Assembly: GCF_000337555.1 (NCBI RefSeq)
Contig: NZ_AOIO01000028.1
Span: forward strand, 1-59,969
Length of the DNA stretch: 59,969 nucleotides
Direction of reading: 5' to 3'
DNA from: Natrialba asiatica DSM 12278
GTDB taxonomy: Archaea; Halobacteriota; Halobacteria; Halobacteriales; Natrialbaceae
Under the pieces are notes generated by a model. The model did no database searches and had not been told where the DNA came from. It saw only the letters and a program-made list of their open reading frames with translations. Numbering within the stretch: position 1 is the first letter of the stretch; every line of letters begins with the position of its first letter. This document shows positions 31,118 to 31,903 of this stretch, piece by piece. The translations under genes and the position numbers were made by a program.

Positions 31118-31331
31118 CCGTCGTTCCAGTGGGCGATGAGAGAGAATACGGGTCGAAATCGCGTCTACTCGTACTGCGAGTTCACCGTTACAGATTCGGG
31201 TCGCCCAGCCACTCGCGTCGCGATTCCGGGCCGAGTGCATCGACGGGTGCGAGTGTGGTGGGTTCGATGTGGTTGTGGTGGTTGTGATTCTGGTAATCGT
31301 CTCGAACACCCGCCGGCAACTCGGCTGTCCG

Positions 31332-31368
31332 CCGCGACGCGAGTTCAGTTCGTGAACTCGTTTCGCGG
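31332..31368. terminator. long near-perfect hairpin after the zinc-ribbon gene
   Basis: CCGCGA, two bases, CGAGTTCA, loop GTTCG, TGAACTCG, two bases, TCGCGG: 14 pairs with one 2-by-2 internal loop. It begins four bases after the stop of the minus-strand gene at 31373, so it would end or stabilise that mRNA. No T-run follows on either strand, so a stem for 3' end protection is as likely as a terminator. Confidence 0.5.
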
Positions 31369-31372
31369 TGGC

Positions 31373-31639
31373 TCAGTCCGGCCCGGATCGGTCGGGGGCG
31401 GGGTCGGTGTCGGAGCCTAAGTCTGAGTCTGAATTGGGGGTGCGATCGGGGTCCGGCGGGGCGACGCGACAGCCGCAGGGACCGGCGATGGCCTCGCCGG
31501 GGCCGATCATGGTTTTCTGTGCGATTGGCGTCCCACAGCGGGGACAGCGCGGCGGTTCGAACGGCTCGGAACGGCTGGGATGGTCGGCGTCGTTCGCACT
31601 GCTGTCGGTATCGCTGTCAGTGCCAGCGTCGTCACTCAT
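31373..31639 (-). CDS. zinc-ribbon protein with acidic Ser/Asp tails (88 aa)
   Basis: 88 residues from ATG 31639. The core PPRCPRCGTPIAQKTMIGPG with a later GPCGCRVAPP gives a C-x2-C...C-x-C arrangement, compatible with a zinc ribbon. The flanks are Asp/Ser-rich and low-complexity (GTDSDTDSSANDADHP; NSDSDLGSDTDPAPD), common in haloarchaeal small proteins. The longer open frame to 31702 adds Arg-rich non-coding sequence. Function unknown. Confidence 0.65.
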   Translation of the reverse strand: MSDDAGTDSDTDSSANDADHPSRSEPFEPPRCPRCGTPIAQKTMIGPGEAIAGPCGCRVAPPDPDRTPNSDSDLGSDTDPAPDRSGPD

Positions 31640-31717
31640 CCCAACTGCCACCCGTTGTACCCGCAATCGCGCGGGAGAAGCTCGCTGCTGGTCGAATCGC
31701 ACGATACATCAGTCGTG

Positions 31718-31839
31718 CGGGATGTTTATATCCCGTGAGAATGTACGCAAACATGGCTACAACCGCTAGGGTTGGAAGCCACGTCTCGGATGCTCCTACA
31801 TCCGGGACACTTTCGTGTCCGGTGTGGCTTCCGTTCTAA
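31718..31839 (+). ncRNA. structured element: palindromic promoter plus three-way-junction RNA
   Basis: A palindrome CGGGAT-GTTTAT-ATCCCG (31718-31735) contains a strong TATA box (GTTTATA, 31724-31730). About 25 bases on is ATG 31753. The following sequence folds into a perfect three-way junction: P1 GGAAGCCAC (31774-31782) with GTGGCTTCC (31824-31832), P2 CGGATG (31787-31792) with CATCCG (31799-31804), P3 GGACAC (31805-31810) with GTGTCC (31815-31820) and a TTTC loop. A 28-codon frame (31753-31839) overlaps it. Possible origin is the fused ends of an IS200/IS605-type element or a free-standing regulatory RNA; both are hypotheses. Confidence 0.5.
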
Positions 31840-31903
31840 TTTGTAACCTATTGTGACTTATATCTACCGCTGAGTGTCGGGAAGGAGTGTCACCAGTCGC
31901 GGC

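Follow-up and report, generated by a model that had tools for sequence, protein, structure and literature searches.

A structured RNA leader with two alternative helices at the start codon: a probable family of translational switches upstream of small zinc-binding proteins in haloarchaea

The window analyzed here, the whole stretch of 59,969 nucleotides from Natrialba asiatica DSM 12278 (contig NZ_AOIO01000028.1), contains a cluster of hairpins at positions 31718-31839, which raises the question of what kind of element it represents, on which strand it is read and what it does. A sequence-only reading had placed a palindromic promoter on the plus strand and had taken the folded RNA behind it for either a free small RNA or the remnant of a mobile element. 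The hairpin cluster in this Natrialba DNA was instead found to form the start of a minus-strand mRNA consisting of a leader and two open reading frames, and it is well supported that the RNA is the 5' leader (ca. 78 nt) of this operon. We consider it probable that such leaders form a new family of RNA switches that act on translation, either in the manner of a riboswitch or through a bound protein, and that are located mostly before small zinc-binding proteins. The features referred to below are the following, with the evidence for each:

31857-31862, minus strand: TATA box of the operon, GCGGTAGATATAAGTCAC, about 27 nt 5' of the GGAAG end of the leader (conserved box in the copies).
31755-31832, minus strand: structured 5' leader of about 78 nt, candidate translational switch (fold z -5.4 and covariation).
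31824-31832, minus strand: 5' strand of P1, GGAAGCCAC (G-U and mismatch pattern in 78 copies).
31805-31820, minus strand: P3 hairpin, GGACAC-GAAA-GUGUCC (perfect 6-bp helix in 53 of 78 copies).
31787-31804, minus strand: P2 hairpin, CGGAUG/CAUCCG with a variable loop of 6-8 nt (99.4% of cells paired).
31774-31782, minus strand: 3' strand of P1, which is the shared middle strand, GUGGCUUCC (partner upstream in P1 or downstream in anti-P1).
31761-31773, minus strand: P4, a hairpin that evolves rapidly and separates the middle strand from the 3' strand of anti-P1 (alignment).
31755-31760, minus strand: 3' strand of anti-P1, GUAGCC here and usually GAAGCC, abutting the start codon (pairing counts).
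31632-31754, minus strand: short basic ORF of 40 aa, MFAYILTGYKHPARLMYRAIRPAASFSRAIAGTTGGSWDE, including the stop codon (frame coupling and synonymous variation).
31718-31735, minus strand: P5, an RNA hairpin within the short ORF that encodes GYKHP (covariation).
31373-31639, minus strand: ORF2, an acidic 88-aa zinc-ribbon protein, CPRCG...GP...PCGCRV (invariant residues and modelled core).

The folding energy was -40.7 for the plus strand, compared with -24.7 ± 3.2 in dinucleotide shuffles (z -5.0), and -38.6 for the minus-strand leader, compared with -21.6 ± 3.2 (z -5.4). Together with compensatory changes in the stems across about 100 loci these values confirm that the three-way junction is real, and with that many conserved loci a chance origin of the stems is excluded. 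The closing stem (31774-31782/31824-31832; 9 bp, 100%) and the two inner stems (31787-31792/31799-31804 and 31805-31810/31815-31820; 6 bp each) were recovered as originally described, and the covariation search in other haloarchaea that had been suggested as a check found compensatory changes in them. The 18-base palindrome held in its arms, CGGGAT/ATCCCG at 31718-31723/31730-31735, while its six central bases proved not to be palindromic.

The strand was determined using an alignment of 78 non-redundant copies, which also served for the covariation analysis. P1 contained 49 G-U pairs and 24 mismatches when read on the minus strand and 3 G-U pairs and 70 mismatches on the plus strand; the respective numbers for P5 were 43 and 35 (minus) and 12 and 66 (plus), and P3 was perfect in 53 of the 78 copies on the minus strand and in 35 on the plus strand. 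Nearly all of the ca. 100 copies have a CAGTAGATATAAGT-like TATA box on the minus strand, located 24-25 nt before GGAAG, and this fixed spacing suggests that transcription starts at or near 31832. The plus-strand start at the ATG at 31753 and the promoter function assigned to the palindrome are not compatible with this arrangement, as the conserved box and the putative start are on the other strand. In addition, the TTTATA of the palindrome is replaced by CTTTTTG or TTTTAAG in other genera where the flanking stem still pairs, for which reason an RNA hairpin is a better reading than a promoter. Taken together, the promoter, the G-U pattern and the lack of conservation of the palindrome's TATA give good support to the minus strand as the RNA-bearing strand. 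The outer part of an extended P2 forms standard pairs throughout on the plus reading alone; this conflict is minor and is explained if the respective minus-strand bases belong to P3 and the junction.

For covariation the 21 pairs of P1, P2 and P5 on the minus-strand alignment were scored using five measures and 500 shuffles. Among the 78 copies 96.2% of the cells were paired, compared with 22.8-47.3% when the partners were slid, and changes on both sides occurred at 10 of the 21 pairs, compared with a shuffled mean of 3.9; P2 and P5 contributed three and two such pairs, respectively. On each of the five measures the alignment exceeded all 500 shuffles. The 28-codon frame on the plus strand had been judged secondary to the fold, and rightly so, since after the variable hairpin the copies continue in all three frames; a plus-strand gene was ruled out because the reading frame differs among copies.

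On the minus strand the RNA runs into coupled ORFs and is thereby the leader of a coding operon and not a free small RNA. In the Natrialbaceae copies the AUG directly adjoining the leader opens a short frame with a median length of 39 aa and a median pI of 11.3, the stop codon of which lies 4-14 nt inside ORF2 in 85 of 86 copies, mostly as ATGA; the other two frames end there in none of the 86. These counts refer to copies with a recognizable zinc partner and to the ORF2 start nearest to the stop codon, and the unfiltered listing gave the same pattern. In the window the start of ORF2 overlaps the stop codon of the short ORF by 8 nt. A conserved stop/start overlap of this kind, in 85 of 86 copies, characterizes a translationally coupled gene pair, and overlaps of the ATGA kind were reported to couple translation strictly in Haloferax (PMC6728339, PMC10666635). 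Codon variation was largely synonymous at the conserved residues Leu6, Arg14 and Arg18 of the short peptide (MI/FAYILPGYKRPAR...), which therefore appears to be under selection. Searches of Rfam, Pfam and NCBIfam gave no match for the basic peptide. In the Natrialbaceae genus g3 zinc-ribbon genes (L227-L230) are preceded by a basic ORF of 24-34 aa with the same 4-nt overlap and by a leader too divergent for our models; L230 also has longer in-frame alternatives to the basic ORF.

A second conserved block lies 3' of ORF2 (31217-31372, minus strand) in most Natrialba copies. It reads AACTCGGGTCGCGGCGG...CCGAGTTG ... GAACTCGGCCCGNAATCGCGAC and contains two AACTCGG strands, each of which can pair with a single CCGAGTT; it is possibly another structured element or a terminator, judging by these pairings.

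Searching with the DNA sequence identified ca. 16 dispersed copies in the Natrialba genome itself; of 61 relatives 23 had copies, and all of these belong to the Natrialbaceae. A first covariance model (R1), constructed in plus orientation including the promoter, detected copies in 78 of 125 Natrialbaceae genomes, several of which had at least 26 copies, 26 being the number scored per genome and hence a lower bound; in an evenly drawn sample of the phylum its matches were confined to the Natrialbaceae except for one weak match. R1 served to find copies, and its structure was superseded by the alignments A4 and A7. A second model (R2; threshold E ≤ 0.01), confined to the leader and in minus-strand orientation, matched 139 of 391 genomes of the class, 68 of them outside the Natrialbaceae with a best E-value of 1.7e-12, where most matches were single copies with modest E-values. 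The leader family spans at least eight haloarchaeal families. A search of a phage collection gave no match to the leader region or the SWIM protein described below.

Most copies in the window's genome have syntenic partners in the two sister species compared, Natrialba aegyptia and N. taiwanensis. For the unshared copies tested no empty sites were found in the window's genome, from which their flanks are missing. Between the genome's own loci recurrence was limited to zinc-protein ORFs and to frames that overlap the element, with no transposase among them. Some copies are located on plasmids (Natrialbaceae plasmid records) and some in short tandem arrays (G027). The family likely expanded by duplication; expansion by transposition is unproven. 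One such array (L121, G027:C1:1564000-1582000) holds four leader copies in about 4.5 kb, two of which are without a recognizable zinc-protein partner. Another locus (L120, G017:C1:2393000-2408000) has a pair of leaders at a distance of 1.1 kb, between which lie a RelE-like toxin gene and a ribbon-helix-helix antitoxin gene, and an upstream stretch without a zinc partner is duplicated. Copies without a recognizable partner comprise some of the g12 copies (L120/L134), some of the tandem copies in G027 (L121), L136 and L139.

The middle strand of the leader, GGCUUCC, has two possible partners: the upstream GGAAGCC, forming P1, or the GAAGCC right before the AUG, forming anti-P1. In the Natrialbaceae alignment anti-P1 was 87% paired, with loose outer pairs (20-23 of 78 copies unpaired at the last two positions) and changes on both sides in only 5 cells. 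Among 29 leaders from seven other families the match to the leader's own middle strand was 6.26 for P1, compared with 4.89 ± 0.18 in permuted sets, and 5.57 for anti-P1, compared with 4.57 ± 0.18; for each helix none of 200 permutations, which were not corrected for kinship, reached the observed value. A perfect anti-P1 helix of at least 5 bp ends at the AUG in 24 of these 29 leaders, and the helices reaching the start codon use at least 10 different pairs of strands, with matched sets such as GGCUUC/GAAGCC, GGGUUC/GAACCC, GGUCUUC/GAAGACC and GGUUUC/GAAACC. All three strands have changed together in the Natrialbaceae genus g8 (GAAACC/GGUUUC/GAAACC). The AUG itself could also pair, its three bases doing so in 62, 64 and 69 leaders, respectively, out of 69, all from Natrialbaceae but one. 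By modelled energy P1 was favored over the alternative state by a median of 3.7 kcal/mol and was predicted to be the more stable in 59 of 68 leaders, so that the AUG-burying state may need help to form. There was no evident Shine-Dalgarno sequence before the first AUG. A conserved and covarying leader structure upstream of coding genes is what is expected of a translational riboswitch; the leader appears riboswitch-like in its working, and we do not claim membership of that class.

Based on these observations we propose that the minus-strand leader is a two-state RNA switch acting on translation initiation. Transcription would be driven by the TATA box at 31857-31862. In the first state GGAAGCC and GGCUUCC (P1) would close the three-way junction with P3 and P2 and leave the AUG free; in the second the middle strand would pair with the GAAGCC before the AUG and, in the Natrialbaceae, with the AUG as well, so that the start codon would be buried. 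In this family the AUG opens a basic peptide of 30-80 aa, with a stop/start overlap to the gene of a small acidic zinc-ribbon protein, and both would be translated together by termination-reinitiation. In the leaders inspected from other families a gene follows directly, often one for another small zinc-binding protein (SWIM or other types). The arrangement of the three strands suggests a leader designed to leave the start codon either open or buried, and we infer that the two states regulate translation in the cell. Their balance would presumably depend on a ligand, on a protein, for which the encoded zinc protein is a candidate, or on a condition.

The ORF2-type proteins are acidic (median pI 4.3) with a median length of 71 aa, and in most copies ORF2 is a zinc ribbon of the pattern CPxCG...GP...PCGC with the invariant residues C32, C35, P54, C55, G56 and C57. 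In the structural model residues 31-60 form a core of three short strands with block-mean pLDDT values of 91-93. With two cysteine pairs and this modelled fold ORF2 qualifies as a zinc ribbon, for which metal binding is predicted. No Pfam or NCBIfam family scored above its cut-off for the zinc ribbon, and a Foldseek search against the PDB gave no significant match, the best being zinc-ribbon ribosomal chains of the eL43 type (E 0.32). A sequence profile search of the PDB returned, as its best match (E 0.0004), a designed zinc-finger array aligned over the disordered N-terminal part, which was taken as chance. Other partners with the same overlap are a CYRCD...CC zinc type (g12), a variant in G021 and a helical protein. 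The last of these (L038 and L020) is without zinc cysteines, LHE.L.EI...L..LE.QLPEPLSL...ADAYARVG, and takes the place of the zinc ribbon, with leader and short ORF unchanged in kind.

Outside the Natrialbaceae 30 leaders from 24 genomes mostly stand straight before a gene without a basic peptide. Many of the products are of a zinc-binding type (SWIM, other CxxC proteins or overlapping pairs), in one case with the SWIM zinc finger PF04434 above the curated Pfam cut-off, and some are without a recognized domain. The Haladaptatus plasmids NZ_CP085339.1 and NZ_CP085302.1 carry SWIM zinc-finger genes at 23-24 places each; R2 confirmed the leader before a single gene each of Haladaptatus (E 4e-7) and Halalkalicoccus (E 1.5e-4) and detected none before the tested genes of Haloferax, Halobellus, Haloprofundus or Halorussus. 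Several of the SWIM genes, in Haladaptatus as in other genera, have PIN/HTH or other genes of toxin-antitoxin-like type as neighbors. The CxxC...GP...CGC ribbon or a relative of it was also seen inside longer proteins of other haloarchaeal families (L246, L252, L253, L255, L256) with apparent winged-helix-type regions, the domains having been assigned by eye, a context hinting at a regulatory role.

How the balance of the two states would be set distinguishes variants of the switch reading. The leader could be autoregulatory, with the encoded zinc protein or the peptide binding the junction and repressing its own translation and no small-molecule ligand taking part, which is a variant of the switch reading and compatible with it; we hold this to be a real possibility that falls somewhat short of probable. 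It is consistent with the fixed position of the leader before many different small zinc-binding proteins, the opposite charge of peptide and protein (median pI 11.3 and 4.3, respectively) and the eL43-type fold match, which is non-significant (E 0.32). The partners are, however, unrelated (zinc ribbon, SWIM, CYRC...CC and helical types) while the leader core is constant, which one common signal fits better than many cognate proteins. The most far-reaching version of the switch reading would be an undescribed class of natural riboswitch found across the haloarchaea that hides the start codon and governs a large zinc-protein regulon, all loci responding to one signal such as a metal ion or a stress metabolite; we put this forward tentatively and with some doubt. 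If true, this regulon would have expanded to more than 20 loci in some genomes.

Further explanations were weighed against the switch reading. The pair of genes could resemble a toxin-antitoxin system or selfish element in which a toxic peptide is neutralized by the acidic zinc protein and kept low by the leader, as might be expected from the high and variable copy number, the carriage on plasmids, the tight coupling of genes of opposite charge and the VapBC/PIN/RelE-like genes near some copies. We regard this as unlikely, considering that the leaders of other families directly precede their gene without a basic peptide and that most of the genome's own copies are syntenic in the sister species and not obviously mobile. 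Equally improbable in our view is a constitutive mRNA element for stability, processing or ribosome recruitment, with the second helix as a by-product of repeated sequence. In its favor the P1 state is predicted to be the more stable in most copies; against it, the matching of all three strands stops precisely at the start codon in several families. The original model of a plus-strand small RNA, or of a MITE, IS200/IS605 or TnpB remnant with a palindromic promoter, accounts for a dispersed, multicopy element with palindromic stems and for the extended P2 pairing fully on the plus reading solely, yet is very improbable given that the covariation pattern and the conserved promoter, as well as the linkage to ORFs and their overlap, all belong to the minus strand, that the palindrome's TATA is not conserved, that no transposase or terminal repeats were seen in common between copies, that synteny with the two sister species holds for most of the genome's own copies, and that nearly every copy precedes a protein gene.

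The switch reading was finally compared with known systems. The leader shares with IS200/IS605 ends, MITEs and TnpB guide RNAs the nature of dispersed palindromic DNA and differs from them in being a cis leader of coding genes for which no hallmarks of transposition were seen. The coupled ORFs resemble the termination-reinitiation pairs of Haloferax in their ATGA (-4) overlap, from which tight coupling is expected, but here the first gene encodes a very short basic peptide and also an RNA hairpin (PMC6728339, PMC10666635). The haloarchaeal zinc-finger micro-proteins (HVO_2753-like, PF07754) are likewise small with CPxCG-type motifs, while ORF2 has the pattern CxxC...GP...PCGC and scores below the Pfam cut-off (PMC10716476).

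Ribosomal-protein autoregulatory leaders are structured leaders that control translation. They are like the present family in lying upstream of a small protein of nucleic-acid-binding type, and differ in that the downstream genes here are non-ribosomal, belong to several unrelated families and occur in many copies per genome. Candidates of the ribosomal kind are presented in PMC7247131.

In Rfam no family matched the element at the gathering score in the window or at 20 distant loci, the permissive threshold returned for the region only matches far below the gathering score, and no Rfam family or tRNA was detected anywhere in the window. No description of the leader family was found in the open-access literature searched, subscription journals being outside that search; the main text of a comparative-genomics survey of structured RNAs from 2010 does not mention haloarchaea (PMC2864571). 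A study of transcription start sites in Haloferax reported 72% of protein-coding transcripts to be leaderless and structured leaders not to be typical of haloarchaea (PMC4983044). The occurrence, in at least eight haloarchaeal families, of a leader in which two helices that compete at the start codon covary speaks against the latter view. Through this family many small zinc proteins that lack annotation are joined in a putative regulon with a shared regulatory handle, and it predicts a conserved family of basic micro-proteins in the Natrialbaceae.

With translational riboswitches that mask the start site, such as the natural bacterial classes, the leader has in common a structured 5' region and mutually exclusive helices, one of which would bury the start codon, and it differs from them in matching no Rfam class and in having no evident Shine-Dalgarno sequence before the first AUG. 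As of 2021 the sole experimentally determined natural riboswitch of archaea was the fluoride riboswitch of Thermococcus kodakarensis (PMC8241225). The synthetic theophylline switches of Haloferax volcanii likewise mask the start site; a designed AUG-masking switch works in Haloferax (PMC8241225), and the leader family described here would provide a direct test system for start-codon switching in haloarchaea.
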